Positions 10,495 through 55,379 of a DNA stretch of 64,000 nucleotides are shown piece after piece. The notes beneath the pieces were generated by a model, which saw only the letters and a list, made by a program, of their open reading frames with translations, searched no databases and was not told the DNA's origin. Origin of the DNA: Saururus chinensis (lineage: Eukaryota; Streptophyta; Magnoliopsida; Piperales; Saururaceae); assembly GCA_035235625.1 (NCBI GenBank), contig CP141148.1, positions 35,465,057-35,529,056 of the forward strand, read 5' to 3'. Every line of letters begins with the position of its first letter. Within the stretch, counting starts at the first letter, position 1. Both the position numbers and the translations under genes were made by a program.

Positions 10495-11591
10495 CTAAAC
10501 GGCGACGTTAAGGTCGAGTTTTGGCCGCTTCGGGACCGGAGACGGCACGACCGTGTCGCACCGCGGGCATTTCGGGTTACGGCTCGAGATGAGCACGTAC
10601 AGCAGACACCCGGGACACCCCGCCGCGAACATACGCCCCTGGCCCTCCTGCTCCGCCTCCTCCGTCGAGGAGGCGGACGACCCCTCGGCGGAGGCCGGGC
10701 GTTTCCTCCCCGCGGAGGAAGACGATTCCCGCTCCGCCCGCTCCAGCGCCGACTTCACCTTCTCCAGCGTGCACACGCTCTGGCAGGCCCCGGGGGCGGC
10801 CGCGGACGGGACGAGCTTCAGATCGAGGGTCTCGTCAGGAAGGAGGGTTGAGGCGGAGGACGACGCCGCCGCCTGCGGGGGAAGGTTCAGATCCTGCAGC
10901 TGGCTGTGGTGGCGCCGCGGCGGCGGCGATTGCTTCGGATCGGAGGCGCGCGGCTCGAGGTAGATTTTTCCAGACTGGATACAGAAAAAGAGAGAATAAC
11001 TCTATTAATTATTTAATCAAAAAAGATAAAATAGATACTAAGAGATTTTTAGCGTGCAGAAGGGAGGATCGAACAATTTTTGAATCGATAATTTCGTATT
11101 GAATCCAATCGATTTGGAGGAAAACCAACCAAATTTGAAATTTGGAACTTATAAATGGAAGAGTAATTACAAGGAAAGGTGAATCAGGATGAACAGAGAA
11201 TTTTCCAGGAAGAAGATGGCAAGTGATGAGTGAAGTCAAAAACGGAAATTGAAATTTGGGGTCGGCCAAATCCATAGTTTTAACAAAAAAATACAATTTA
11301 TCAGAATTGGGATTGGAGGCAGACAAATCTTCGTGATTTCAAAGCAAAAAAGGGAGAATTAGAAGAGATTATGGAGGGGAAAAACAGGAGGCGACGGGAG
11401 CTTACCATCATGTCGAGGCGCTTCTCCCAGCCGGAGGGGACCTGGACGTCGAGATCGAGCTCCTGCTGGCCGAGCTTGGAGCATCCGCCAAGGAGGTCCC
11501 GGGTGATGAGAGCGGCCACCTTCCCGCCCCCCTCCTCGTCCTTCCCATACCCGCCCAGGATCCGCACCAGTGAGCTCACTTCCGCCGCCAT
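10495..11591 (-). CDS. CURLY FLAG LEAF1-like protein (WW-like motif, EAR repressor motif)
   Basis: Two coding exons, 11406-11591 and 10495-10974, joined by good GT/AG sites, encode 221 residues. ATG at 11591 fits the family start MAAEVSSLVRI; an in-frame TTG just upstream is not a start. Residues about 45-75 (LDLDVQVPSGWEKRL then SGKIYLEP) form the WW-like motif, with the second Trp not apparent. An LxLxL-type LQDLNLPP follows near residue 85. A CPGC...CPRC zinc-ribbon-like pair lies near 182-201, and the C-terminus is an EAR motif, KLDLNVAV. In rice and Arabidopsis, CFL1 proteins restrain cuticle formation through HD-ZIP IV factors, so a nuclear co-repressor role is likely. The exons are far more GC-rich than the surroundings. 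Confidence 0.9.
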
Positions 11592-20700: not shown

Positions 20701-22846
20701 TGCCTAAGAGCCAGCTGCAAAATCCTTGCTATACGCCGAACAGATGCAAGAGCTTCATAAGATGATTCTTGGATATCTATTGAGAAAATTTCAATAGCAG
20801 AGTCCCCAAGAAATTGAATATGTTTCAAGTTTGTGGGCTCCACAAACTTACAGTTAACAATAAAGGTTCTGTACAATTTACTTGAGATGGAGTCCAGACA
20901 TTCTATGCCTAATCCAAGAGCCATATCCCTTATTGCTAAAAATGAAGAAACTGACAATTTATCTCCTCCTGTGGCCCACAAGTGAACAGCAACCTGCATC
21001 AGCAATTAAAATTATCGGCTAATATAAAAGACAATTAAAATAGGCAAAAGGTAAAAAGAAACAATTGTTTTGCTCAACAAGCTCTATTTGAAAGAGAAAT
21101 ACATATCAATGTTACACTGAATGTATCATATCAGTCAATTAGCTTATCAATTATAAATGCAGAAAGATGTATCATTCCACTTGCTTTTTCGCTACCTTTT
21201 CGCATAGAAAGGTGATGCACCACTTAATTACTACTTTAAGTAATTTAGCTTCATCAGTTTTTTGCTTTTCATATAAATTGTCACAGTAAACGAAGCTACG
21301 TCAAAAAAGTAAATTCCAGATGTTGTCCAAGTAACAAGTTTGTAATTGAAAATATCCAAGGAATTTTTATTTCTTAGACAAGAAAAGAAAAAGACATGCA
21401 CAAGATAAACAGTCAATTATATGAGAGGTCAAATTACACATGATATGCTCAGTACTGAGACAGCCAATACTGGTTCCGCACTATCCACTTTTCTTTCATC
21501 TATCAACTTCACCTACAAAATGACTATCCTTTTTACATGAGTAGAAGAGTACCTTAATAAATTTTCTAAATAATGACGGGAAAGCAACAAAAACATACGA
21601 TAGAAGTTCTGAGACGAGATAAGGTGAACTCAAGTATCTGCCAATCCGTAGCTTGATGCAACAAATACAATGTACTCCTCAGGTACAACTTCAACAGTGG
21701 CTTGACAGTCATCCACTTAGACGAACTTTTCAACTCCAACATTATCTCCTTCTTGCAGGAAGTCTTAATTCCCAATAGTTTTCTAAATATACCATCCGAC
21801 TCACAAAGGACAAACATCAATATTTTACAGAAGGCCTTTTTATTTGGTATTTCCTGACATGAACTTTCATGTAGTCCATCAGATCCATAATTACAGGCAG
21901 CTTTGTACCCGTTTAGCAGATTAGGGAGTATAGACATATTCTGCTTCTCCATTACCAACTGACACCAAGCATCAACAGTAGAGCTCGTAAGGACCTTGCC
22001 ATCTTTAAAATTGGAGCTGCTGCTCATTGCCGATCCATGCTGCTCACTAATCTCATCTTCCTCATCAGAAGACTGCCATTTCACAAGAATATTTACTGGT
22101 ATTACGTTGAAGGTTTCATAAACAGACAAATTTATCACATGAAAAAAAACTAGCACAGCAAATATAGTCCCCAAAGCAGGTGACCATTTTGACCGTAGAT
22201 GGTACCCCTTTAAAGTCCCATTGCACCAGAAAACATGTCAGATGTGCACTGCAAGTCTAAATCTTGATTTAGTAGGCATCAATGAATAAAGATAACACTT
22301 TAGTTAACAACACCAATTCTTCCCATGCTTAAACTGTCAAAATTGGTAACAAAAGTAACTGACTTACAGACACATCACCTCGAAGCTCGTTAAGTTGTGA
22401 ACTGTGCGCTTCCAAGAACATTGAAAATTTTGGATCCTGAATAGTCCATTCATGTAATTAAATATCATTAAGAAGAGGTCAAATATGCTGAGAATGGCAG
22501 AACTGAAAACAGGAACAGCCTGATCCTATGAACTATGAAATTAGATTATAAAAAATGCATAAACATTTCTAAACAATTGAAAACACAATTCCAGAAGAGC
22601 TCCACATTTGTCAGGAATTTCCTAGCTTTCCAGGAAAAGATCTATAATCACAGATGACCAACCAATGATTTAAACAGCCATGATAAATGATGCCTTTACT
22701 GGCTGCCAAGGAAAGATCCGGTAAATACTAAAATGTCTCAGCATTATTTTCTAAAACAGATACTTTTACCATGAAATTTCTTCCAGTAATCTTTAGCTAT
22801 ACAAATCCCCTGATGTTGAGTGGAAAAGATGTCAACACTGAATCTA
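20701..22846 (-). pseudogene. Truncated segmental copy of NOC2 (exons 5-7)
   Basis: This block copies 27899-30050 of the intact NOC2 gene in the same orientation, introns included, at roughly 97% identity by eye. It carries equivalents of exon 5 (22368-22436), exon 6 (21553-22072) and most of exon 7 (20702-20993). Exon 6 is 520 bp against 519 bp in the intact gene: an extra base near 21580 shifts the frame after SRLRTSIV. There is no start exon, no exon 4 or earlier, and nothing beyond exon 7. The low-end break falls 13 bp inside the last bases of exon 7; the high-end break falls in intron 4. Retained introns exclude a processed copy. It cannot make NOC2. Confidence 0.92.
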
Positions 22847-22960
22847 ACGCTAAACAAATTTTAGTGTAAATAATACTAACGCTAATGCACGTTAGCATAT
22901 ATGTGATGTTGATGTTTAGATAAATGATACAGTAGAGATCAGAAGCTAGACTCCGTTGTC

Positions 22961-26092: not shown

Positions 26093-29000
26093 TCATTTGA
26101 AGTACTTTCGGTAACGGAGATTCCAACTACTGTACCTAATAGTCTTATTCATGAGTACATTTCTGGAGATCGACTTTTGTACGAGTCTCTCATAATACCG
26201 TGGGAAAGGAGCATTCTTGCCATTCTTCTCTAACTGCAGCCCACCAAATACAACCGGAATCAGAGCTTGTTCTTAACTTTGTAATGGAAGAAAAGAGACG
26301 CGAAATGCTGACCTGAAGAAAAGAATCAGCCAATGTTTGGTCTTTTGGTGAGAATGGAACATCTTCTCTTTTCTTCTGCACATATAGCACATTCTGCTCG
26401 ACCTGAATATAGAATAAAATGCATTGTTATAATGTAAACTTTATTAGAGGAAAAGTTGACACAAAAAAATGTTCCAAATTGATTGAGATACATCAGTTCA
26501 AATGTATTCATTGATTAGAAGAACCCACACAGTCCCAGAAGTTTTAAGATATTTACAGATCCTCCTTTTTAATCAACATATTCTCATTATGTAAAAACAA
26601 ATTGAGTATGATGCCAGCCAATTTTTTGAAGGTGATGAACCATAAAAAGGTCTCAGATCAAGCAGTAACGCTATAACATCAACTGACAATTTAATTCAAT
26701 ATATTTATATTTTAAACTAATACTGAAAAAAACAGTGAACCCATCAGCTATAACAAAAACTGGCTGTTCAATGGAAAAAAGAAACCTTATCCGGAACAAA
26801 AGTTAGCCCCCTGAACTAGGTCGCTAAAGTGTCCAACTAAAATAACTTCTGTTTGAAACACACAATATAAGAATTAGTATAAATTTGACCCATAAGGTAC
26901 ACCAGTACACAAAATGTAGCAGGCAATAGAGCACTATATCTCATAATCTATTAGTATCACAATTTGAAATCACATCATACTCCAATAATGCATGATATCT
27001 GGCAAAATTTCATCGACTGTAACTTCTTTCATACGAGATACTAATCATGGATTCATATCAAACTTCCTCATGCAAAACAAGTACCTGTTCAATTAAACGC
27101 TTCACGCGACAACGAAGACTTTCAACTGTTATCTTATTACAAAATGTCTTCAACCGAATGAGAGGAATAATTGCTAGTTCAGGAAAGGAAATATGATAGC
27201 TCCATTGAGCAAAGTGTGCTGACAGCAGCTCAACTGCAGAAATAATGCACTCTTCTTGGAAGCTTTGGGATTTTAGGAGATATTTCGGAACCTAATCAGG
27301 AAAAAGAAAAAAAGATTAAGCAAAATAAGACATGCAATTATTTGCAGCAGCAATAGATAGATAAATTAAGTAAGCACACAGGTCAAACCTTTAATACAGA
27401 TGAAAAGTTTAAAGGTGCCACAGGTCTTTCATTTGTTATCTTGCCACATTTGTATTCCAGTGAACAGAGTATCAAAGAAGCAATGGGAATGAAAACTCCA
27501 CTGGAACCAGAAAGCTGATTAAGCATTTGTATGCATTTAAGCCTCAGAGGTAGGTAGCGGGGACCAGTAAATAAGTGGGCAACTCCACTTATGATCTGAA
27601 TAACTAAGTAAAGCAGAGGTTGGAGATCATGATCCCGAATGTTTATAGAGATAAATTTAACCCACAGATCAATGCAGTTTATGTACTGCCAATTGTAAAT
27701 CTTCTTCAGAGCATCCTGCATCAATAAAAAGAAAAATAAACATGCTTAAATCCCACGTCTATTGCATAATTTATAATCTCAAATGCTATTCACTTTTGAG
27801 AAGACAAACATGCTTAAATCCCACGTCTATTGCATAATTTATAATCTCAAATGCTATTCACTTTTGAGAAGACTATCAGAACAACCTTTCTCTTTGTCCT
27901 AAGAGCCAGCTGCAAAATCCTTGCTATATGCCGAACAGATGCAAGAGCTTTCTTAGATGATACTTGGATATCTATTGAGAAAATTTCAATAGCAGAGTCC
28001 CCGAGAAATTGAATATGTTTCAAGTTTGTGGGCTCCACAAACTTACAGTTAACAATAAAGGTTCTGTACAATTTACTTGAGATGGAGTCCAGACATTCTA
28101 TGCCTAATCCAAGAGCCATATCCCTTATTGCTAAAAATGAAGAAACTGACAATTTATCTCCTCCTGTGGCCCACAAGTGAACAGCAACCTGCATCAGCAA
28201 TTAAAATTATCGGCTAATATAAAAGACAATTAAAATAGGCAAAAGGTAAAAAGAAACAATTGTCATTTTGCTCAACAAGCTCCATTTGAAAGAGAAATAC
28301 ATATCAATGTTACACTGAATGTATCATATCAGTCAATTAGTTTATCAATTATATATGCAGAAAAATGTATCATTTTACTTGCTTTTTCGCTACCTTTTCG
28401 CATAGAAAGGTGATGCACCACTTAATTACTACTTTAAGTAATTTAGCTTCATCAGTTTTTTGCTTTTCATACAAATTGTCATAGTAAACGAAGCTACGTC
28501 AAAAAGTAAATTCCAGATGTTGTCCAAGCAACAAGTTTGTAATTGAAAATATCCAAGGAATAAAAAATTCCATTTACAAGAAAAGAAAAGAAAAGAAAGA
28601 GACATGCACAAGATAAGCAGGCAATTATATGAGGTCAAATTACACATGATAGGCTCAGTAGTGAGACAGCCAATGCTGGTTCCACACTATCTACTTTTCT
28701 TTTATCTATCAACTTCACCTACAAAATGGCTATCCTTTACATGAGTAGAAGAGTACCTTGATAAATTTTCTCAATAATGACGGGAAAGCAGCAAAAAATA
28801 CAATAGAAGTTCTGAGACGAGATAAGGTGAACTCAAGTATCTGCCAATCCGTAGCTTGATGCAACAAATGCAATGTACACCTCAGGTACAACTTCAACAG
28901 TGGCTTGACAGTCATCCACTTAGACGAACTTTTCAACTCCAAGATTGTCTCCTTCTTGCAAGAAGTCTTAATTCCCAATATTTTTCTAAATATACCATCT

Positions 29001-31532
29001 GACTCATGAAGGACAAACATCAATATTTTACTGAAGGCCTTTTTATTTGGTATTTCCTGACATGAACTTTCATGAAGTCCATCAGACCCATAATTACAGG
29101 CAGCTTTGTACCCGTTTAGCAGATTAGGGAGTATAGACATATTCTGCTTCTCCATTACCAACTGACACCAAGCATCAACAGTAGAGCTCGTAAGGACCTT
29201 GCCATCTTTAAAATTGGAGCTACTGCTCATTGCCGATCCATGCTGCTCACTAATCTCATCTTCCTCATCAGAAGACTGCCATTTCACAAGAATATTTACT
29301 GGTATTACGTTGAAGGTTTCATAAACAGACAAATTTATCACATGAAAAAAAACTAGCACAGCAAATATAGTCCCCAAAGCAGGTGACCATTTTGACCGTA
29401 GATGGTACCCCTTTAAAGTCCCATTGTACCAGAAAACATGTCAGATGTGCACTGCAAGTCTAAATCTTGATTTAGTAGGCATCAATGAATAAAGATAACA
29501 CTTTAGTTAACAACACCAATTCTTCCCATGCTTAAACTGTCAAAATTGGTAACAAAAGTAACTGACTTACAGACACATCACCTCGAAGCTCGTTAAGTTG
29601 TGAACTGTGCGCCTCCAAGAACATTGAAAATTTTGGATCCTGAATAGTCCATTCATGTAATTAAATATCATTAAGAAGAGGTTAAATATGCTGAGAATGG
29701 CAGAACTGAAAACAGGAACAGCCTGATCCTATGAACTATGAAATTAGATTACAAAAAATGCATAAACATTTCTAAACAATTGAAAACACAATTCCAGAAG
29801 AGCTCCACATTTGTCAGGAATTTCCTAGCTTTCCAGGAAAAGATCTATAATCACAGATGACCAACCAATGATTTAAACAGCCATGATAAATGATGCCTTT
29901 ACTGGCTGCCAAGGAAAGATCCTGGAAAAACTAAAATGTCTCAACATTATTTTCTAAAACAGATACTTTTACCATGAAATTTCTTCCAGTAATCTTTAGC
30001 TATACAAATCTCCTGATGTTGAGTGGAAAAGATGTCAACACTGAATCTAATCTTCAAACAATATTTAAAAATATAACTATGGACGAAAAGTCACCTAATA
30101 GTCATTTGACAACACAAAAATCCTAAGGAGCATCCAATATGCACAACATATACCATTGGAAGGTTGGTGCAATCTCCAAAATTTTTGCATGTGTGCCATC
30201 CACCTAACATCAATGATATAGCTACGTAGTTAAATTCATTTCCCTAACCACCCCTTTCTTTTTACCTTTTTCTTCAGCCTCTCCAGTTTCTTTTTTAGAC
30301 TGTCAAGTTCCAAATGAGCCTCGCGATTCTGCCCTGTTAGTTCAGAAGAGCTGCCTATTTCTGGCCCAAAAAAAGTATCATAAGTCATGAAATGATTACA
30401 GCTTAAACAATTATACATCAGGATAGTGATGAGACTACCTTTGGAATTATCCTCATTGTCACTGCCAGCCAGGTAAGGACATTCTGCATCCTGACAATCA
30501 AAAGAAAGCCCAATATGAAAAAATAAAAACAGAAGAAAGATTTAAGGAGGTGATATGCTGAAACTTGTCATGGAAAAACCTCTGAAAGATATCCATCACT
30601 CTCAGAAGCATCATCTATTGATGAATCATCCTCTTCCTCGAAAAGGACATCTAGGGAAATGTCATCAGCTCCATCTGTAATTTGTCCTTCATAGTTACTA
30701 GAAGAATAACAAATAAAAGTCAAGACCTGCAACATTCAACATACCTAAAAAGATCTTGTAGTGGCATTTCAGACACTGAGAAGTCTAGAGCCAGACATAA
30801 TATGCAAAAGTTACGAACAAAATCTGAACTTTTTAAAAGAACTAACGATATTTCCAACATCCTAATATCTGCATACTAACTTCGTAAAGCAGAAGGAGTA
30901 TTATAAAAACGATGAAAATTATTGTTTTCATTCTTCAAATCTTTTAGACTTCTTCTCAAATACGTGCCCTTCAAATTAGCAAAACACTTGGGTTCCAGAT
31001 TACTATTTTCCCGGACTCACTATCTAATCTAGATAAAAACCGAGTAAACCTATAAAAAAGAAACCAATAAAGAACACTAGCCGTATAAAGAAACAATTAA
31101 ATGGTGAAAAAGAAACAAAACATATGTCTACCAACAGTAGCCAAAAGTAGATGAATCATACAATACGCTCATCAAACAAAAGTGCCGCCTTAAAAAAACA
31201 TAACCCCAGGGGCATAGCTCCTACCCAGTGTTAAATTTCCCAGATGCAGGCACCACATGGTCTTCAGAAGTGTCATTCTTCGCTCCTACATCAGCAGAGA
31301 AGATCTCATTCTAATCATACTAATCAACATGTATTGCTTAAGTAGAACCAATAAATCAAACGAAAGCACAACACAATTACCCAAAAGACGAAATGGGTCA
31401 TTTCAAACTCTCACCAGAAAGCCTTCTTCTTCTGGAAGAATCTCTCATAGACTTGAACTTGCGCCTCTGTCTCATAACTGACTGGAGGTTCTTCCGGGCA
31501 AACTTCCTGGCCTTCTTCCCCAGCTTCCCCAT
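26093..31532 (-). CDS. NOC2: NOC2, nucleolar complex protein 2 / REBELOTE-like
   Basis: Eleven coding exons with GT/AG borders and matching phases encode 671 residues: 31415-31532, 30580-30674, 30439-30490, 30266-30360, 29571-29639, 28757-29275, 27886-28188, 27389-27715, 27085-27291, 26313-26402 and 26093-26233. The basic N-terminus MGKLGKKARKFARKNLQSVM is the family start. An acidic stretch and a Lys-rich coiled coil follow. The Noc2 domain covers the rest (LTSSTVDAWCQLV, LHLLHQATDWQILEF, FFAAFPSLLRKFIK, GPRYLPLRLKCIQMLNQLS, HFAQWSYHISFPELA, FSPKDQTLADSFLQ). NOC2 forms dimers with NOC1 in early pre-ribosomes and with NOC3 in later 60S precursors; Arabidopsis REBELOTE also affects floral determinacy. 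The copy looks intact. Confidence 0.96.
27738..27873. repeat. Perfect 68-bp tandem duplication in NOC2 intron 7
   Basis: Two identical head-to-tail units (27738-27805 and 27806-27873), each containing CATGCTTAAATCCCACGTCT, lie in the intron just 12 bp past the exon 7 donor. Absence of differences suggests a very recent event. Confidence 0.95.
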
Positions 31533-31974: not shown

Positions 31975-32166
31975 AGTGGCGCATCTCCAAATTATAATTT
32001 TTTATAAATAAAAAAATAAAATAAAATAAATATATTAAATTTTAATTTGCAGCAAATTTGTTGGAGATTTTGATCACAAATATAGTGTCATGTTAATGTG
32101 GATACCAATATGCTAAATGTTATCGCGAGCCTTTTCCCTCTACGCCATTACAACAATGGAAAAATT

Positions 32167-32362
32167 TTATATGAGCCCCGGCTCATATACGCTTACGTGA
32201 GCCCGGGCTCTATGGGCCGTTGGATTTATATCCGGCGGCCTATAATATTCATGGGTTTAAATCCATGAATATTACCCATAAAAATTATGAGCCGCTGGAT
32301 GTAAATTCGACAGCCTATGGAGCCTGGGCTCACCTAAGCATATATGAGCCCAGACTTATATA
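32167..32362. mobile_element. Palindromic MITE with long inverted repeats
   Basis: The left arm reads TGAGCCCCGGCTCATATACG and onwards. The right arm reverse-complements to a matching TCTGGGCTCATATATGCTTA with further pairing (GTGAGCCC.GGCTC, then GCC.GT.G.ATTTA.ATCC). Arms of about 80-90 bp close on a central ATTCATGGG...CCATGAAT loop. TTATA-like ends may be the target duplication. Non-coding. Confidence 0.75.
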
Positions 32363-32479
32363 AACAAGACTCTTACAACAATATATGCGCAGTTACAAAT
32401 GTCACGAGCACTGGTCCTTTTTGCTTTGTGAATGCTCCCCACAATGGCCAAATGGGGTGTGCCCCTATTACACTAATAT

Positions 32480-35030
32480 TATTTAATGTTTGAGATATAA
32501 TATAAATTTTAATAATAAACTAATTCTTAACAAATTAGGTTATTGAAAACTAATAATTACTTTACATGGTATTAGATGGAAGGACTTTGAATTTGAATCT
32601 AGTGGGAAGTAGTAAGGCCACCTCCTCCCCTCCTCCCTTGCCACATTGGCAATCTTAGACTCCTCTTTCCTTGTCATCATCATCGTCCATGTGTCACTAC
32701 ATCCTTTTTACATAAAAATATATACTTATATTTTCTGTGTATTCACCAATAAGAAATATATATGAGTATCTATAAACAGTTATATTATGTAATGAAATTC
32801 TATCTTTTCCATGGTATCATAGCTTCTGCCTAACGGCTTGTTCCTGCAACCGTTTGCCGGCAAGCTCTCTCTTCCGGCGAACTCTCCGGCGCCTTCCCTC
32901 AAGACCGATGCCCATATCCATTCGCCGGCCAACCTCCTTCCCCCTATCCTGTGCTCTCCCTGTCACCGGCCTTCCCCTTACTGCTGGCCCTGCTTGTCGG
33001 TCTCCCTTCCCACCGACGAGCTTCCTCTCATTCTGCCTGCTGGCCTCCTACTCCGGTTGTCGCCTCCCATCCAGATCCAGTTCGATCCCGTCCAGATCTG
33101 CCCGATCCGACGCCCCCCCCCTCCCAAATCCACTATAATCCCGTCTAGATCTGACCGATCCAGTGCCGCTTAGTCTAGCTCCACTCCGATCTGATGCCCC
33201 TGCTCGGATCTGCTCCGATCCAGCGCCCCCTAGTCCAGATCCGCTCTGATCCGGTGCTGCCCCAGTCCAGATCTGCTATGTCACAGGCACGACACCATCC
33301 CGGCCTCAGCCTAGATCTGCCCTTCCAGCCCATCACCATTCCAGCACACCTTCCCCTTTTTACCAGCCGCCCAAATCTGCCCTCCCCCCTCCGCACAGCC
33401 TCTCCCAGTCCCTCCTTATAGCCTCTCCTAACCACTCTATGACAACGTCCGGTCTAACCCTGAGCTCTCCCTCTTCCCCACCCTCTAAGACACTCAATGA
33501 CCTCTTCGCTCCCATGTTGGCGGTGGTTGGTTTCCTCAGCTCTCATCTCCCTCAACTTGTCACCTTACTTTGTGACTCCAACATCTTCCTCATTTGGCGG
33601 ATATAAGTCCGTGACCTCCTTGAGGGTTATGGTATTATGGGGTTTCTTAATGGCTCCACCCCGTGCCCAGCCACCAACAACCTTACTGCCCGCCCTATCG
33701 CCGCCCAATGGCGCTGCATTGATTGAGTATTTATCACTGTTGTTCGTGCCACCATCTCCCCTTCCTTGCTTGGCTACTTCATAGGCCTTGAGTCCGCCAC
33801 TGCCCTTTGGACCGCAGCTGAAGATCACTTCCTCTCTACCTCCCCGGCTCACATCCTCAATGTGAAAGAACGTCTTGTAGCACACGTCCAAGGCGATGGC
33901 ATTATGACCGCATATCTCAACGGCCTTAAAGCCTATGCAGATCAACTCGCCGCCGTAGGGGCTTCCATCTCAGACCTTGACCTCTTTCACAAGATATTAA
34001 ATGGTCTCTTTGGCACGTACGTTGTCTTCTCAGCCGCCCTCTGTGCTTGCGGTGTTACCATCCCTTTCCCGGAACTTTGGACGCTTCTCCTTGCCAAAGA
34101 AGCCACTCTCTCTCGCGCCCCCGCTGCCCCCACAATAGGCCTACCCCCGGTGACGACCCTCACTGTCCTCCACTCATGGCACCCATCTCTTCTAGCTAGC
34201 TATGGGCCCCTACCTTCGGCACCTCCCCCCACAGCCCCCGGCCCCTATGGGCTGCCTCCCGCCTCCCCTTATGGCCTCTCAACGGCTCCCCATGACGGCC
34301 TCACTATACTTGAACGTTCTTTCACATTGAGGATGTGAGCCAGGGAGGTAGATAAGAAGCGATCTTCAGCTACGGTCCAAAGGGCAGTGGTGGACTCAAG
34401 GCCTATGAAATAGTTGAGCAAGGAAGGGGAGATGGTGACACGAACGGCAATGAGAAGTACTTGATCAATGCAGTGCCATTGGGTGGCAGTAGGGCGGGCA
34501 GTAAGGTCACTAGTGGCCGGGCACGGGGTGGAGCCATCAAGGAACCCCATAACACCATAACCCTCAAGGAGGTTACAGACTTGAATCCGCCAAATGAGGA
34601 AGATGTTGGAGTTACAATGTATGGTGACAAGTTGAGGGAGATGAGTGCAGAGGAAGCCAACCACCACTGGCACGGGAGCGAAGAGGTCATCGAGTGTTGT
34701 AAAGGAGGGTGGGGAAGAGGGAAAGAGGGAGAGCCCAGGGTTAGACCGGACGTGGTCATAGTGGTTAGGAACTTAGGAGAGGCCATAAGGGGGGACCAGG
34801 AGAGGCCATAAGGGGGGACCAGGAGAGGCTGTGCAGAGGGGGGGAGGGCAAATCTGGGCGGCTGGTAAAAAGGGGAAGGTTATTTATGGGACATTTGTGT
34901 TCATATATAAAATATATTCGTGGGAGAATTAAGATATAAAAATAAATTCAATAAGAGCCAATTTCTTAATAACTTAAGCTAATTGGGATCAATAATTATT
35001 TTACACTTAACACCAAGGGAGAATGATAAT
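32480..35030. mobile_element. Ty1/copia-type retroelement fossil, rearranged
   Basis: A broken copia-like element. LTR-like stretches lie at about 32483-32600 and 34915-35020 in the same orientation. A tRNA-Met-type primer-binding-like site (TGGTATCATAGC) is at about 32813. A C-rich leader follows, then a gag-like (UBN2-type) coding remnant on the plus strand to about 34330. The leader-plus-gag segment is present a second time in inverse orientation (arms about 33349-33873 and 34313-34880, spacer about 440 bp). No integrase, RT or RNase H is seen. It has several breaks and looks old. Confidence 0.75.
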
Positions 35031-39720: not shown

Positions 39721-40516
39721 ACCATGCTTGTTTTAGTAATTTTTCTCTAAATATCTATGGGTCACCAATTACAAAACTAAGCAATGATCACAAGGCATAA
39801 CAACTCGACTTGACTTGGCTCTAACTCAACTTGAGCTAGAAATTGAAGTTTCAAGCTCAAGCTTTAGTGTCACGCCTTGACGCTACCCGACCTGAGCCAA
39901 ACTCGGTCCAGGGGCCGGTCAACACGTGGGGGCGACGAGGAAAAATTGAGATTCGGTTTAGCGGAAGACTTAACCCTAAATATGGGCAATCTAACAGAAA
40001 TTATGGAGTACATACATTCATTCGAGGAAGAGTAAATAAGTAGAAAAGAAAGAGAATCGCTTAATTCAAAATAAACGACTAGTCTCAAACCCACATGCTT
40101 AGTCAACCATAGCCCACTATGGCTAAAAAATAGGTCTTAGACAACATAACCGTATAAAGTAACATGAATCTAACAGAGAACCATACACAAAGGTTCTAAA
40201 CATAGAGTATAAACCAAAGAAAACAAGTCACATAAGGTCTCCACGATCACATCCAAGTCGTCTCTGATCTTTCCTCAAAGAGGAGATCCTATCCGTCGGT
40301 GTGTCGCACCACGCAACCCCAAAGCAAAAACATAAGAAAGAGGAGTGAGTTTAACAAACTCAGTAATGGTTTTTAATATAACTATCATCATTAGAAACAC
40401 GATAGCATAGCAATATAATCATTCAGATCAAAGATTGACAAGATGTATCATTTTTTGATCACAGATACACATCACCTAAACCTGCATCATAGTGCATAAT
40501 CCACATAGTGTCATTC

Positions 40517-41125
40517 ACATCATATCTACCTACATGAAATGTATCTCTAACATACATATCAAATCATGCCTCAACATCATATCAACCTGCGTAAAATGTA
40601 TCTCTAACATACATATTCAATCGTGCATCACAACACATCAACTTGCATGAAATGTATCTCTAACATACATATCAAATCGTGCCTCAACATCATATCAACC
40701 TGCATAAAATGTATCTCTAACATACATATTCAATCGTGCATCACATCACATCAACCTGCATAAAATGTATCTCTAACATACAAATCAAATCATGCCTCAA
40801 CATCATATCAACCTGCATGGAATATATCTCTAACATACATATCCAACTATGCATCACATCATATCAACCTGCATGAAATGTATCTCTAACATATATATCA
40901 ACCTGCATGAAATGTATCTCTAATATACATTTCTAATCATGCATCACATCATATTAACCTGCATGAAATATATCTCTCACATACATATCCAAACATGCAT
41001 CACATTATATCAACCTGCATGAAATATATCTCTCACATACATATCCAAACATGCATTATATCATATCAACCTGCATGAAATGTATATCTAACATACATAT
41101 CATATCATGCATCATATCATATCAA
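40517..41125. repeat. Minisatellite of about 56 bp, 10-11 units
   Basis: Units contain AACCTGCATGAAATGTATCT followed by CTAACATACATATC and ATGCATCACATCAT. Spacing of the CCTGCAT core is 55-58 bp except for one unit of 34 bp near 40868-40902. Units differ by scattered substitutions, so the array is not brand new. There are no unique spacers between repeats. Confidence 0.9.
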
Positions 41126-41128
41126 CCT

Positions 41129-41400
41129 CCATTAAGGAGTAATCACAATTTAATGTCACACAGACGGGAACACAGACAAGGCCACGAAGGCGTGTCATGG
41201 TCTCATGCAATCATATTACATAAACCACATTCACCCTACACGATAAACGTGTCAACCACATGATACACAATCATGCATAGCATTCATGATAGACATGCAT
41301 CAATACAAATAGTGAATGCCTCCATTAAGGAGTAAACATAAGCATTGCCACACAGGCAAGAACACAGTCAAGGCCACGAAGGCGATAACATGGTCAAATT
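41129..41400. repeat. Two diverged copies of a short unit, 193 bp apart
   Basis: CTCCATTAAGGAGTAA...GGCCACGAAGGCG...CATGGTC occurs at about 41129-41203 and again at about 41322-41396, inside the TG...CA element and just after the 56-bp array. Confidence 0.7.
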
Positions 41401-44831: not shown

Positions 44832-46679
44832 ATGATTTTAATAATGCTATTTACACCCATAATACAAGGAGCACATGTATTTATTATCCTACCCGCCCTC
44901 CAAAATTAGGCATTGTCAGATTCAATTTGACAGCTCACAATGCACCCCAACCACATTCAAATATGAGTCAATGTGCACTTTAACTAGTTCTATAGTAAAA
45001 TCAGAGTTGAATATTCTTACATGATTATATTGTTTAAATTTGTAAATGAGTATTTTAGTTATTGGAGTTTTATGGCTTTTAAAGTTTGACTCGTATGATT
45101 TTTGAAGTCAATTATGAAGTCATTTTAATTTTGTGTCACTCAGACAACTAAGTAGGAATGAGGGGAGTTTAATGGAGTTTTAATACTATGGTTTAACCCA
45201 CTCAAATTATATTAAATTAAATAATAGTTTGTTCTCTTCTTTTCCAAGGTTGTTTGCAACTTGCAAGATCAAGATAAATGTGGCACCGTGCGTGATTAAT
45301 TAATATTTACTTTATGAGATACAAGCATTGACCATGATGTGGCCCCTCATTTAATTGTTTCCTTCATTTGTATCTATCGTATCATGGTTGGTGTTTCATA
45401 CTATCTTTTCAATCAAAACGTTAGTTTTGGTCAACTCGGCTTAACAAATTTATTCGATTTTGTTCATTATCATTGCGGCAGCCTCCACAAATGATCAGGG
45501 CTTGGTGCTAAGAAGATAGAAAAAAATGTCATATCGTGTTTGATAACACAATTTCACAAATGAACTTTATTTTATTTTGTTTAAGTCAATTGATTTTTTA
45601 CCATATTGTTTTTGTTTGCATCAAAAGTACTTGTAATAAAGAAATCAAGTATAATTCCCGGCTTGAAGGGTACATTTGGTTAGCAGGAGGTGAAAAGGTT
45701 GTTTATGAAGATTAAAACTTAATGACTTGTTTGGTAACACATTGAAGAACAAAGAAGAAACCTTTAAATGTTAAAGGGCCGTTCCTCCTCCCCCACAAAG
45801 TGATTATTTTTGGAAGCACATCTTTTTTTTATGATGTGATGTTTTATACTCAGTAGAAAAATTATTTTGAAAACGTGGCATAAATGAGAGGTGATAATAA
45901 GCGCCTACGCCAACTGGTGTGCACCCATTGTTTTTGGGTAGTGTGCATGATTCAATAATTTGGATGACCTTTTAAATAAGAAGGCAGACATGTTTTTATT
46001 AATCACCCTCCTCACAAAATGTGCGCTGTAGTGTTAGGAAAATACTAATTGTCTTTTTGCTCCACAAGAAAGTTGATATTTAAATTTTATTTTATTTATA
46101 TTAAAAATTTACTCCGGATAATTGGATTAAGAAAAGTGAATCTCCATATTGTTGGGTCTGACATATTTTTTTTATTTAATTAGCTTCATTGTCTTTAAAG
46201 TAGGTGAGCTAATTTAAATGGGCGAGCAGGTATGGTTGATCGCCATTTGCTCTCCACTTTGTTTATATGGAGGAAATGAAGAATAAACTAAGAGAGGATG
46301 ATGGCAACTACATCATTAGTGGTGAAAAAGTAGTAAAACTAAGGTTCTACGATGTTACATAACTACATAGCATGATCCTTAGTATGGTTACTCAGGGACA
46401 GAATTGAGTTATGATAGTAGGGCCCACGGCCCCTTTGTAGTTTGGAGCTTGTTTTATATATCTAATGTATATGTCTTGGATGGCGCATGCTAAGCCTCTA
46501 TACCATACTTAGTACTCCTATTTAGGGTTGAAACAGGGTCAGGGATTAGTGAGGTCTGAGCTGGGCCCGGGCCCTAGCTTGCCAACTTAACTTAAGTTTG
46601 GAGCCCAACCAAACCCAAGGTAGTCTTCTAACATTTCGGCCCTGACTTGACCCTTAGCTCACTCGGGGCTTTTTCCTAT
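44832..46679. other. AT-rich spacer
   Basis: No supported gene between the hAT-like element and the Mutator-like element. A GGGCCCGGGCCC-containing patch near 46560-46600 is the only compositional change and has no clear meaning. Confidence 0.55.
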
Positions 46680-46815
46680 TTAAATTTTGAACGGTGCTAT
46701 TTGAACCCCGTTTTTCTCCCTGTGTCCCCCGTTACTTGTACACCCCAAATGCAAAACTTAAAACTGCTCACTTAAACCCCACTTCCACAAAATATTCTAA
46801 AACAACTTTATCAAT

Positions 46816-48414
46816 GTGTATACCCCGCCCTTTCCTCCCTCCAGGCTTCACCACTTAAACCCCTCTTCGGCTTCTCCGGTCTCCCCCAACGGCGCCGGTC
46901 TCCCCCAGCAGCTCCGGTCTCCCCCAGCGGCTCAAATCTTCGTCTCCACCAGATTGGATATGCGTGATAATCCAATTTCCCTGTCAGAGCCTCAAGCTTC
47001 CCCTATTTCGCAACTCCGCCGGAACACTTAATTGTTTTTGCGCCGCTACCAGCGCCTCCAGCTCCAGATCTCCCGGTCTAGCACCTCTACCAGTGCCTCC
47101 AGGTCTAGATCTCCCGCTCTAGCACCTCCACCAGCGACTCCAGATCCAGCATTTGCCCCTGCCATTAAAAAGGTCAGTTTTTTATTTTCCCTCTGTTTTG
47201 CTACAATAGTTGGATTCACATACTAGTGGTTTTTGTGTTTGTTCATTTTCCAATTTTAATTCTCGTTTGCCACTCTTACAAGCTTAATTGGTAATTAGGG
47301 AATATGTGTTGTGTTTAAACCGGAGACTGTGTTTTGTGTGGAGTTAAAGGAGCTGTTTGACATTTATGATTATTGACTATGATTTTTTTTAATTTCTATT
47401 TCCTATGCCGCTTTTTGGTAAATGGAGAAATATAACTTCTGTTTTATATCTTCTTGACATTAAGACAGGCATTTTTAGATCTTAGTTGGAGTTGGAGAGG
47501 TACAAGTAAGATGAAGATTTGAGTTGAGACATTGAGGATGAGGATCCTCCGAAGCAGTAATTTGAATGGCAAAATATGATTTTATCTCAACAAATGTGTT
47601 CTCCAGTTCAATGTTATTGCTCTTTTTATGATACTTTTCCCGTGTGTCTAGCTGCATATTTTATATGAATTGATGGGTTGATCATTTTGGCAATCTCATC
47701 ATGTAAATAGTTGTTTGTATTTGTCATAACATTTCTTCAAAAAAGGCTCTATCTGGGCATTACTTTAAGTTCGCTGTCCATAATTTAGTAAGGGTAAATT
47801 GCCTTAAGACGTGATATATGATGAATGATACAGAAGAAGGTTGAATTTTTAGTTTATTTGTATGTTTAAGGCTAGGAAGCATGGATATAGATATCTAAGT
47901 TTATTGTGGTTGAAATATTTATTTGAGTGTCTATGGAAACATATTAAAATACAGGTACTTTTGCTGAATGGTTCACATGATAGAGAAACTGCTGTATTAA
48001 ATGCATCTTATTTTGTAACTGCCATCATAGATGCACTTAATCGAACTCTTGGTGACCCTCATAATTCTCTCAGCAACCTTGTAACTAAACAGGGATACTT
48101 CAATGCAGGTCAAATATTTAATTCATTCTAATGCTCTGAGCTACTAAAATAATCTTTTGTTTTGCACAACCTAATGACTATGTAAATGCTTTGTTGGTGC
48201 CAAGAAAGCTCATGTGACCAAATCTCATTCTTATTGCACGATTCATGTTGTGTTTATTTTGAGTGTTCTAATTCTTATTGCAGTGGTATTATGGGGTTTA
48301 TGCATATATTTTGAGTGTTCTAATTCTTATTGCATTATGGTATTATGGGCTAACCTTTGCTTTGATTCTCCATACACTAGGTGTTGAGGATACACCCAAC
48401 AGCATCAAATAGAG
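46816..48414 (+). CDS. Gene-like structure inside the MULE, unknown product
   Basis: I do not recognise this product. A proline- and serine-rich frame (46816-47031, then 47041-47174 ending in AAAAAG|GTCAGT) is followed by an exon at 47955-48108 bordered by ACAG and AG|GTCAAA. It reads VLLLNGSHDRETAVLNASYF, then VTAIIDALNRTLGDPHNSLS and NLVTKQGYFNA. A third segment after ..CTAG|GTGTTGAGG near 48380 continues in phase as GVEDTPNSIK and stops. The middle exon has clean borders and good codon structure, so it may be a captured host exon (Pack-MULE) or a MULE accessory gene. The first frame carries an in-frame stop at 47029-47031, so the upstream model is uncertain. Confidence 0.4.
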
Positions 48415-48770
48415 GCGACGAACTGAAGCAAAAGATGGAGTTGCTGATGATGATCAATTTTAGTCTTAGAGACCTTTAAATTTCATGTACGGAGACATTT
48501 TCTGCAGCTATTTTTATTTGTGTAAGGAACTTCAGATATTTGAAAACAGTGGACGCGTTATTTGTATAAGATTAATTGTTGTGCTGCTATAGTTTAGTTG
48601 TATGGCGAAAACAGGTGATTGAAAAGTTATGTTGAACAGGATGAAAAATGTGCACCAGTTTAGTTGTATACGATTAATTGTTGTGATGCTACAGGATGAA
48701 GATTATGCATGGTGTTTCACAAAAGAACCCTTGCAACCTACCTCACAAAAGAACCCCCCATTAATCACTT

Positions 48771-49167
48771 GAAGATGTTATTGTTTTCGCGTTGACGGGG
48801 GGTACCCCCCGCCATTTCAAAGACAATAACTGGAAGATGTTACTGTCTTTGCGTTGACGGGGGGTACCCCCTGCCAAATTGTGTATGAAGTGGCGGGGGC
48901 CACCCCGTGCCCGTAACATTCTTTGCAAATAGACGGGGGGTGCCCCCGCCACGAAAATGACAGTAAGTCGAAGATGTTACTGTCTTTGCATTGACGGGGG
49001 GTACCCCCCGCCACTCCAAAGACAGTAACTGGAAGATGTTACTGTCTTCGCGTTGACAGGGGGTACCCACCGCCACTTTGTGTATGAAGTGGCGGGTGGG
49101 TCTTGGCCCCCGTCTGATTCTTTGCAACGCGGTGGGGGGTGGCCCCTGCCACGATACAAACAGTAAC
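48771..49167. repeat. Dimeric palindromic minisatellite in the MULE
   Basis: Four units start at GAAGATGTTA-like sites 48771, 48833, 48970 and 49032, giving lengths 62, 137, 62 and about 136 bp: a 199-bp short-long dimer present twice. Each unit carries GGGGGGTACCCCCC-type palindromes (GACGGGGGGTACCCCCCGCC). Unit junctions form a second hairpin, AAAGACAGTAAC-(8 nt)-GTTACTGTCTTT. Long units add GGCGGGGGCCACCCCG and GGGGGGTGCCCCCGCC modules. A related AGCAGGGGCTAGCCCCTGCC hairpin recurs alone near 50142-50170. Confidence 0.9.
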
Positions 49168-49334
49168 TCTAAGAACTATTCAACCATTGAGTAACTATTT
49201 GAAGTGAATTAACTCATCTAGTACATATATAGAAATTTTCCAATTGCATCCAAAATATCATTAATATCTATCCGTAAACACTTTTAATACATCCCATCTT
49301 TATTTAGGATTCCACTGTCGGCTCTCCAAAACTA

Positions 49335-49847
49335 TCACATAGTGAAACCATGCCTCATACAAATTTCTTTGGCCCATTTTATTAAAGCGTCTCGTGATGA
49401 GAACACCTGCAAGTTGATAAACATATATTATTCTTGACATTTCTTCAATTAATATGACATATTGTCACAACATTCATGATTTTACCTTATCATCAGAAAA
49501 TGCAAAAGATATATCCATATTTAAGATGTCGCCCTCGCTTTGGCCTTCTCTTTCATATACATCCTGTTAACAAAGAGTTGTATGATAAGATTTTCATTTC
49601 ACAACATTAGAAAATACCATAATTCTTTGTGTTGCCTTATATTTTTCTTTTTAGATAGAAAAATGGTCTATACCTCTTTCGAAGACTGGTTTTCTACCTC
49701 ACCATATGTTTCATTCGCCTCTATTTGTTTCAATGAACATGGAACAATCTCGTCTATTTCCTCGTTTGAAGCAATACACCCATTATTCTTGATAATAGAT
49801 GACATCAAATACATAAAAGACGAAGATTCACCAGCAAGATGCTTCAT
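49335..49847 (-). CDS. MULE/FAR1-type N-terminal protein, truncated
   Basis: Three exons (49674-49847, 49486-49563, 49335-49406) with GT/AG borders and phase-0 junctions encode 107 residues starting MKHLAGESSSFMYLMSSIIK. The last exon reads VFSSRDALIKWAKEICMRHG-FTM and stops. The F.SRDALIKWAKE...HGF pattern is the start of the FAR1-like zinc-binding region found at the N-terminus of many plant MULE transposases; the expected continuation (IVIKRSD-like and the DDE core) is missing. The reading is inferred from motif and splice signals. It is a degenerate transposase remnant or a small accessory protein. Confidence 0.6.
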
Positions 49848-50649
49848 TCTTGATTGACTTAATCAATAAGCTATAGTCACCTATGATAACACAAATTAAG
49901 AGTAATGAAATTCTAGGACGATCATAAACAAACAAACAATACTTGGCAAGAACTAACAAAAGTTTTTAGCTCATCAATATACATTATTGTACTTATAAGT
50001 GGGTTATCCCCATGTAGATATAATCACATTGTTGCATAGTTTACCCTCCGCAAGTATACTAATTTAAGCTCTGCAAGTATACTATTTGAAGTTTTTACTT
50101 AGTTAATATGTGGTAGGGGGTGGTCCCCGTGAAGTGAAGAACAATGTAGCAGGGGCTAGCCCCTGCCAAAAAAATAATAGAAGGTTGCATCTGTAAACGT
50201 TCTAGCAGAAAAAAATCTGAAAAACTTGTATCTGGAAGTGTAAAGACGGTCTCTGGAAGTGTAAAAACGTCATTGATGAACAAAGGAAGAAAACTTACAA
50301 AAAAGGTAGGTCGCCGGAGCTTTTCTACCCACCACCGGAGTTTTTAAATCGTTGCCGGAGCTAAGGTGTATGTCGATGACAATAATATTCTCTGATCGCC
50401 GGCGGCTACAGTGCTTGCCGGCGGCCTTGAGGAAGAGGAGAGTAAAAAATCTATTTCATTAGGTTAACTTCTCAAGTAAAAACGTGGGGGAAAAAAGAGT
50501 AAGTCATAAAAAGGTAGATGGGGGATAAATGAGTAAATTAGGGAGGGGGAAAGCGGGGTATAAAAGTAATAAAATATTCAGACTTTTCACTTTCATTTGG
50601 GGGATAGTGGAAAAAAATAGCGGTTTAAATAGCCAGCTTCTTAAATTTT

Positions 50650-52429: not shown

Positions 52430-52621
52430 TGAAAACTTTAGCGATGACTGCAGCCATCGCTAAAGCCAAACAAACCATCACCGTAGATTCAATAGCAACA
52501 AGGGGGCAAGGATTTTCAGTGTGGCCATGACCATCGCTAATGGTTTTTGCGATGCCATTTTCAGCGATGGAGTGTTGACCGCCGCTAATAACCGTCGCTG
52601 AAAGACAATTTTTTTGTAGTG
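52430..52621 (-). mobile_element. CACTA (En/Spm) transposon terminus
   Basis: Read on the minus strand from 52621 it begins CACTACAAAAAAATTGTCTT, followed by repeated AGCGACGG/AGCGATGG subterminal motifs in both orientations (TTTCAGCGACGG, TTAGCGATGG, CATCGCTAAAG). That is a typical CACTA end with subterminal binding repeats. The opposite CACTA end and any transposase are not visible nearby, so this is a fragment or a very short derivative. Confidence 0.75.
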
Positions 52622-53269: not shown

Positions 53270-55379
53270 CTAAAAGCAAATGGGAGAAGAAGGATGCATT
53301 TGAAAATAAGCTACAATGGGGTCAACATCCAGCTCTAGTGTTCCATCATAGGCAGGAGAAAAGTCATGTGGCTCATCTGGACCTGCGGTTAAACTTGATT
53401 GGTTCTCTTCACTGAAAACCTTCAATTCAAGATCGAACTCTAAGTCCATTAGCCACCTTTTTTGTTCATAATCTTCTTTTGATTCTTCTTCCTCTTTGGC
53501 AGCATTTTGAGCCTCAAGCTCCGTCTCCTGCCCCACACAGTTAACCATGATTTCTGGAGCATTGCCTTCCAGCATGTCCCATAAGTCAATATTGTATTCA
53601 TTTGGCAAAATTATTATCTCATCAGAGTTGTCATGATCCTTGTCTCCAAACAGTACTGAATCCTCATCAGCTAATTGACTGAGACATGAGCCAGTACTAC
53701 ATGAATTGTTGGTTGAACTGGTGGAGGATGTTGGGGAGGAGCTCAATGATGGCTTAGGCTCATTACCACAGTGATTGATCTCTTTGGACGTAAACTGCTT
53801 GTTCAAGCTTGTGTTACATGTGCTATCGACCTCTGTGAGTTGAGGCCTCACAGGGAGAGGTGATTCATAATCCAACAAGTCCCAAAAGTCCATGTTAGGC
53901 TCAAGTGGAATTTCAATCGGATCCTTTAATGGCTCGTCCTTCTTCTCCACCTCTATTAATTCTTCCGCCTCCTCCAACGAATGGCCAAGATCGAATATCG
54001 AATTAATCGGTTCTTCGTCTCCGATCCCATCTCCTTGATTGAGACTTGACAAAGCTGAGTCTGAGGAAGAAGTTGAAATTGAGTTCTCCTTAGTTTCCTC
54101 TTTAGAAGTGACAGGAGTAGGTTCTTTCTTTGACAATTTCTTCTTGAGATGTGTGTTCCAGACATTCTTGATCTCGTTATCAGTTCTCCCTGGTAGTTGA
54201 GACGCAATTTTTGACCACCTGCTTAGATGCAACCCATTAACAAATAACAACTCCAGTCATTTAGAGACAATAAAAACACATTACCAAACAGTTTGTGTAT
54301 ATGTCCAAATATGTTTGCCATCTACACTAATTAAGTGAAATGTCGTACTTATTCCCAAGTAAACCATGCAGCCTAATTATGGTATCCTCCTCCTCTTGGG
54401 TGAAGTTACCACGCTTGATGTCCGGCCGGAGGTAGTTAATCCATCTTAGTCTGCAGCTCTTTCCACACCTCAACAAACCTGCAAATAGTAGGAAAACACA
54501 CTAGTCAAATTCCAATGTACTTTTGAGCCCCTTCTGTGGTTGGTCTAAAAGAATTTGAACATTCTTCTTTACACACTGCATTTGTCAAGAAGTCATGACA
54601 TTCCCAGTACTGTACGAAGACATTATGACCTCACATGTTACTTTTAGTCAATATGATCAATATAACATAGAATTGAAGTGATCCATTATGTAATTCTTAA
54701 TTTCTTACTAAATGCGATGTTTCACTGAGTGTACCACGAGAACAGATGTTTAACATATACAAAAAGATATCATAGTTTGAAAATTACACCAAAAAAACTT
54801 CTATCCACGTACTTTGTTATGCATAATTTAATAATATAATTCAAAACGAGAGATCGTATATTGATATGCAGTGTAAATATATATTTTTAGCGGCTTAAGC
54901 ATTTGGTGTCCAATACAATAGAGAGGCCGTTTATCCATTAAACTTGCCATGTGTTTGCGCTCTTGTGCACAGTCTAATGGATCACGATATGCAGGTGATA
55001 TATGATAATCAAAGTAATTCTAGAGTGCGTAAGTATATCGATCTCCTTATTGGAACTGGCACTTTGTTAGCTTCATACATCTGTAACTACTTCCATTCAG
55101 ATACTTCGATGAATGCTCCTATTGTCTTGTCTTATGGTATTTGGTTTCGTTATATGGATTGTTTGAGAGAGAGAGAAAGAGAGAGAGAGAGAGGGAGAGA
55201 GAGAGAGAGAGGGAGGGACAGAGAGAGAGAGAGAAGCGACCTGCTTGTTTAGGAAGAGCTCTCCAGTTGCCATGCCCAAATTTGTGAATATAGGCTACCA
55301 ACCTCATGTCTTCTGCTGGTGTCCATGGACCTCTCTTCAAGCCAACTTTCTCACAGCATGGAGCTCTCCCCTTCCCCAT
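53270..55379 (-). CDS. R2R3-MYB transcription factor
   Basis: Three exons (55241-55379, 54349-54478, 53270-54218) encode 405 residues. The first two have the 139- and 130-bp sizes typical of many R2R3-MYB genes. Residues 1-19 are [20 protein letters not shown]2 runs to NYLRPD and R3 to WNTHLKKKL, with the DNA-recognition segments [18 protein letters not shown] and [20 protein letters not shown]. The C-terminus is acidic and Ser-rich, with repeated acidic Trp motifs ([34 protein letters not shown]) that look like activation modules. The MYB domain resembles subgroups 2/3 (MYB14/15, MYB58/63), which act in stress phenolics or lignin; subgroup placement is uncertain. The gene looks complete. Confidence 0.95.
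55169..55235. repeat. GA microsatellite abutting the MYB exon 1 donor
   Basis: An impure (GA)n tract of about 65 bp, broken by GGGA and GACA, starts about 5 bp inside intron 1 of the MYB gene. In the transcript it is a (CT)n tract directly after the splice donor. Confidence 0.95.

Follow-up and report, generated by a model that had tools for sequence, protein, structure and literature searches.

A GC-rich palindromic array in a degenerate and probably Mutator-like plant transposon: probable origin by a small local duplication

In the maize element MuDR, the stretch separating the two genes reportedly carries hairpin-forming repeats; the available portions of PMC8224964 and PMC2686159 hold nothing on this intergenic region. 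Mutator-like elements (MULEs) in general are described as generating target site duplications of 8–11 bp and as carrying terminal inverted repeats of 14–500 bp, with some MULEs lacking such repeats (excerpts of PMC6446971), and the accessible part of a study of grapevine MULEs gives a duplication of 9 bp wherever one was found (PMC2528002). For plant MULEs in which the terminal repeats themselves are duplicated, slippage of a repeated motif is one of the causes proposed, the authors calling the cause unclear in the excerpts available (PMC3310237). Among the literature matches listed (titles and abstract openings, with most subscription papers outside this scope) there was no description of an array such as the one reported here.

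We analysed an array of GC-rich palindromes located at positions 48771–49168 of a 64,000-nucleotide stretch of Saururus chinensis DNA (henceforth the window, to which all coordinates refer). The array is a genuine and statistically strong feature, yet an ordinary one. Our preferred reading, to which we assign a probability of roughly 70%, is that a GC-rich palindromic module was duplicated in tandem, locally and on a small scale, in a degenerate, probably Mutator-like plant transposon.

Ends and coding capacity of the host element

The array lies inside a segment with the following boundaries:

46680–46688, no strand: left target site duplication TTAAATTTT, an exact 9-bp match to 50641–50649
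46689–46730, plus strand: imperfect terminal inverted repeat of the left end, about 42 bp
46689–50640, no strand: probable Mutator-like element of 3952 bp, delimited from its ends and the 9-bp duplication
50599–50640, minus strand: imperfect terminal inverted repeat of the right end, about 42 bp
50641–50649, no strand: right target site duplication TTAAATTTT, an exact 9-bp match to the left copy

An end-anchored 45-bp alignment of the left against the right end scored 28, the highest score among 2000 shuffles being 14. When the same type of alignment was applied to all pairs of identical 9-mers spaced 1.5–6 kb apart in the window, the element ends ranked first among the 3133 pairs, and ranks 2 to 5 were taken by AT-rich stretches (4–9% GC); under 22-bp ungapped matching the ends ranked second, behind one of these AT-rich pairs. 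The original prediction had labelled the element as Mutator-like, and this label is supported by the combination of the 9-bp duplication and the imperfect inverted ends: TTAAATTTT is present exactly on both sides, at a length within the 8–11 bp typical of MULEs, and the terminal repeats, although short for the group, fall within its range of 14–500 bp. We read the element as an old, degenerate and probably Mutator-like DNA transposon; its classification as a probable non-autonomous member of this group was made from the ends and the duplication alone.

Coding capacity was assessed with Pfam for 69 of the 78 listed open frames, i.e., those of at least 30 amino acids lying wholly within the element (the other 9 lay outside it or crossed its ends and were left out). 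None of the 69 had a transposase domain, and the two matches that did appear were at chance level (the ribosomal bL9m_N, E = 0.023, and IL33_bt, E = 0.058). Seven peptides of the element scanned separately for transposase likewise gave none. Because the DDE-domain transposase that marks an autonomous MULE was found in none of the 69 frames, the element was not classed as autonomous. There are, nonetheless, two groups of coding-like pieces on either side of the array, with splice-like borders judged by eye:

47853–48412, plus strand: left coding-like pieces (frames 47853–48131 and 48272–48412), with splice-like borders and without Pfam match
49335–49862, minus strand: right coding-like pieces (49862–49668, 49566–49474 and 49427–49335), with splice-like borders

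Joined together, the right-hand pieces had PF25669 as their best Pfam match (E = 0.15, under the cut-off of that family), and the joined coding-like pieces matched nothing in NCBIfam (a prokaryote library) or PDB. The minus-strand piece at 49335–49427 may resemble the beginning of plant proteins of the Mutator/FAR1 type, a likeness for which Pfam gave no support at E-values up to 10, where most matches above about 0.1 are dropped by the program. A coding role for the array itself was considered and rejected: its 111-amino-acid minus-strand frame (48840–49175) had no Pfam match and was taken as a by-product of the repeats.

Several other features of the window were recorded alongside the element. 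Two direct repeats of about 2.15 kb (20703–22847 and 27898–30050; 96.5% identical, starts 7.2 kb apart) have the appearance of retrotransposon long terminal repeats. An inverted repeat with 82% identity (33348–33873 and 34314–34880) overlaps a Copia-type gag fragment at 33766–34338 (Pfam Retrotran_gag_2, E = 4.3e-9), and a tandem array of units of about 56–57 bp (CATGAAATGTATCTCTAACATACATATC...), roughly 80–90% alike, occupies 40515–41135. To the right of the element, positions 52430–52621 hold a CACTA-like transposon of which one end was seen, with CACTACAA on the minus strand at 52621–52614, a palindromic block at 52436–52465 and a left limit set by eye. Part of a gene for a Myb DNA-binding protein follows on the minus strand at 53270–54250 (Pfam Myb_DNA-binding, E = 2.2e-8), about 2.6 kb beyond the right end of the Mutator-like element.

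Layout and likely origin of the array

The array consists of four units with lengths of 62, 137, 62 and 137 bp, i.e., of two 199-bp dimers, and Tandem Repeats Finder described it with a period of 199 bp, a copy number of 1.9 and 82% matches:

48771–48832, plus strand: unit A1, 62 bp, with a palindrome at 48777–48830
48833–48969, plus strand: unit B1, 137 bp, with GC palindrome centres at 48856–48876, 48891–48911 and 48932–48951
48970–49031, plus strand: unit A2, 62 bp, with a palindrome at 48976–49029
49032–49168, plus strand: unit B2, 137 bp, with GC palindrome centres at 49055–49075, 49090–49114 and 49130–49151

The opening 44 bp varies little from unit to unit, with 40 to 42 positions identical in each of the six pairwise comparisons. 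Over their full lengths, A1 and A2 agree at 55 of 62 positions, and B1 and B2 at 107 of 136 aligned bases. Each of the two short units forms a single imperfect 54-bp palindrome centred on GGGGGGTACCCCCC, with Watson-Crick pairing at 21 and 24 of 27 possible positions. The original prediction had described an alternation of 62- and 137-bp units built from perfect GC palindromes. The units do exist at these sizes, but the alternation runs through just two rounds; similarly, the palindromes are present, but of the eight centres (chosen by eye) two contain the exact 14-mer GGGGGGTACCCCCC and three are perfect over at least 12 bp. The second hairpin type that had been proposed was recovered, its arms GTTACTGTCTTT and AAAGACAGTAAC being able to pair either inside a unit or over a junction (pairings listed as I3, I4, I6 and I7). 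Given that the dimers are ordered and diverged (82%), we judged it unlikely that the array is an assembly collapse of unrelated repeats.

How could two unit lengths have come to alternate? In B1, two copies of the palindrome occur at a distance of 76 bp and form direct repeats. Taking out 75 bp between these copies (the best cut tried) leaves a sequence identical to A2 at 55 of 62 positions, equal to the count between A1 and A2; the same removal from B2 gives a weaker fit, the best match being to A1 with 46 of 62. The alternation had been held to be beyond the reach of simple slippage, a claim we could not uphold: one 75-bp insertion or deletion between direct repeats and one duplication of the dimer suffice, with a good fit for B1 and a poorer one for B2, and the alternation therefore needs no special cause. 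We infer the following order of events. One copy of the 137-bp module would have lost 75 bp between its direct repeats and so given rise to the neighbouring 62-bp unit (alternatively, a 62-bp unit would have gained the 75 bp), and the pair of 62 and 137 bp would then have been duplicated once to yield the four-unit array. Palindromes stall replication and favour strand switching, and a palindromic module may therefore be prone to duplication of this kind. Besides the poorer fit of B2, three observations count against this reading, namely that the 54-bp palindromes are still well paired (21 and 24 of 27) in dimers that differ by about 18%, that one base pair differing between A1 and A2 has changed in both arms yet still pairs, and that the array is placed between inward-pointing coding-like pieces, which is perhaps not due to chance.

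It is quite unlikely, in our assessment, that the array is instead a separate small element (a foldback element or a CACTA-type end) nested in the Mutator-like one. The CACTA-like end at 52430–52621 does show that such a sequence with a palindromic block occurs in the window. However, a search for 7- to 10-bp direct repeats shared by 48700–48790 and 49120–49260 (CACTA elements make a target duplication of 3 bp) gave a single case, TTGCAAC at 48731 and 49122, off the array edges, and the array is not accompanied by CACTA termini, the closest occurrences of CACTAC or GTAGTG being at 46028 and 52616.

A further set of hairpins lies elsewhere in the element:

50111–50168, no strand: separate double GC hairpin (50111–50131 and 50147–50168), with a perfect 18-bp palindrome at 50149–50166

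For the fold of 50100–50175, the plus strand gave z = −4.8 (none of 200 shuffles as good) and the minus strand z = −3.1 (2 of 200). The double hairpin had been predicted as a stray relative of the array. Its existence is clear, but its likeness to the array is weak: the best local score was 28 on the same strand and 31 on the reverse strand, and 2 of 500 shuffles attained the latter value. When 60-base windows outside the array were scanned, a score of 32 was obtained with starts at 18061 and 18081, and a score of 28 with starts at 34481, 34501, 50121 and 50141. This likeness does not establish kinship with the array nor, consequently, the suggested movement of the module inside the element.

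Folding of the array and tests for function

The palindromes depart strongly from chance expectation. Specifically, the array contains three perfect palindromes of at least 12 bp with at least 70% GC, whereas 300 dinucleotide shuffles averaged 0.06 and never reached three; for the whole 3952-bp element the count was four, against a mean of 0.01 and a maximum of 1 in 200 shuffles. Computing the folding energy, as had been proposed, showed the array to be far more stable than its shuffles, both as RNA (−227.4 kcal/mol over 411 nt, z = −14.7) and as DNA (−119.3 over 411 nt, z = −13.9), with 0 of 100 shuffles as stable in either case. Among 639 windows of 200 nt, the minimum in raw fold energy was at 48801–49000 (−99.6), closely followed by the GC-rich 10501–10700 (−99.5); once GC content was corrected for linearly, 48801–49000 came second and 32201–32400 first. 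Considering this second rank and the near-tie, the array is among the most structured sites of the window, not a unique one. The top GC-adjusted position is overlapped by a palindrome of about 200 bp at 32166–32364 (self-complementary at 78%).

Stems under selection are expected to show arms that change together. We compared the pairing of each hairpin with its own arm to a null in which right arms were re-dealt among hairpins. For ten hairpins, own-arm pairing was 72 of 90 against a re-dealt mean of 74.6 (17984 of 20000 shuffles at least as high as observed), and for the eight hairpins of the array it was 58 of 72 against 62.0 (20000 of 20000); with so few sequences, these negative results represent an absence of evidence and do not disprove a function. 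An earlier signal of co-variation (68 of 90, reached by 6 of 20000 shuffles) was rejected because the pairing register had been picked on the hairpins' own arms. A1 and A2 differ at six pairs; in one of these, both bases have changed and still pair. The array has no G-quadruplex motif (G3+N1-7) on either strand. The 21-base palindrome core had no exact match in the viral and prokaryotic collections viral_contigs and genome_contigs, and the array had none in the plasmids collection, so a bacterial or viral origin was set aside; these viral, prokaryotic and plasmid collections are, by their descriptions, free of plant nuclear genomes and hence uninformative on other plant copies.

The original prediction had offered regulation, transposase binding or hairpin RNA as possible roles, and positive evidence emerged for none of these, the test for arm co-variation being negative. 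Processing of a hairpin RNA from the array into small RNAs seems extremely unlikely: single units do fold strongly (z = −6.9 for A2), but the A2 stem is broken by a 3 × 3 internal loop, and Rfam at gathering thresholds gave no match to a known structured RNA anywhere in the window. There is equally little probability that the palindromes would serve as binding sites for the transposase of the element or for a host factor, by analogy with the subterminal repeats of other DNA transposons. The array has eight GC palindrome centres that resemble one another, with another two at 50111–50168, about 470 bp from the right end, as might be expected of such sites; the array, however, is not subterminal, its distance being about 2.1 kb to the left end and 1.5 kb to the right one, and among the listed perfect GC palindromes of at least 10 bp none falls inside the element to the left of the array.

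The position of the array invites a further explanation. Since the flanking coding-like pieces point inward, the array may mark the meeting point of two transcripts, and it could be a working intergenic hairpin block that ends convergent transcripts, prevents read-through and thereby limits double-stranded RNA and silencing. The array does sit between the downstream ends of these pieces, its fold is very stable, and an AATAAA is found on the minus strand at 49304, downstream of the pieces on that strand; in addition, MuDR carries two genes transcribed in opposite directions and an extra reverse gene is present in some Abermu MULEs (PMC9168764, in the parts available), and inverted repeats are enriched near yeast poly(A) sites (excerpts of PMC6420913). 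By contrast, the coding-like pieces match no family, the plus strand at 48413–48780 has no AATAAA and, among the motifs scanned, just TTGTATA-type motifs at 48562 and 48664, co-variation of the arms was not found, and the yeast repeats near poly(A) sites are AT-rich whereas those of the array are GC-rich. On balance we regard such a role as unlikely, and we think it very unlikely that a MULE would keep a GC-hairpin array between its two convergent genes specifically as a barrier to transcription from both sides, protecting itself against read-through double-stranded RNA and silencing.

Returning to local tandem duplication as the preferred reading, the array is most likely without function in this copy today. 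Had it a role in the parent element, the likeliest would be that of a hairpin-forming spacer at the ends of two inward-facing transcripts. As it stands, the array documents the multiplication of palindromic DNA in small steps within a transposon and carries little weight; were it conserved between convergent genes of intact copies, it would point to a transposon's means of separating transcripts and escaping silencing.

Comparison with known Mutator-like elements

Within the parts of the sources available, three systems resemble the present element to different degrees. The Abermu elements and maize MuDR share with it the 9-bp duplication and have opposite genes within the element, an arrangement suspected here (PMC9168764). 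They differ in having a recognisable transposase, none having been found in the present element, and the ends of Hvu_Abermu measure 138–145 bp compared with about 42 bp here; the main text of PMC9168764 contains none of the terms hairpin, palindrom and tandem repeat. Tm1, a foldback-like Mutator element of root-knot nematodes, likewise combines a 9-bp duplication with blocks of repeats inside the element, but in Tm1 the tandem repeats build the terminal inverted repeats, whereas the present array is internal (PMC3169594). Finally, the plant MULEs with tandem terminal repeats have Mutator-type ends and a tandem duplication within the element for which slippage has been considered, as has the element described here, and they were recognised by target duplications of 9–11 bp, compared with 9 bp in our case (PMC3310237). 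What those elements duplicate is the terminal repeat; the present element, with its short and imperfect ends, has duplicated an internal palindromic block.
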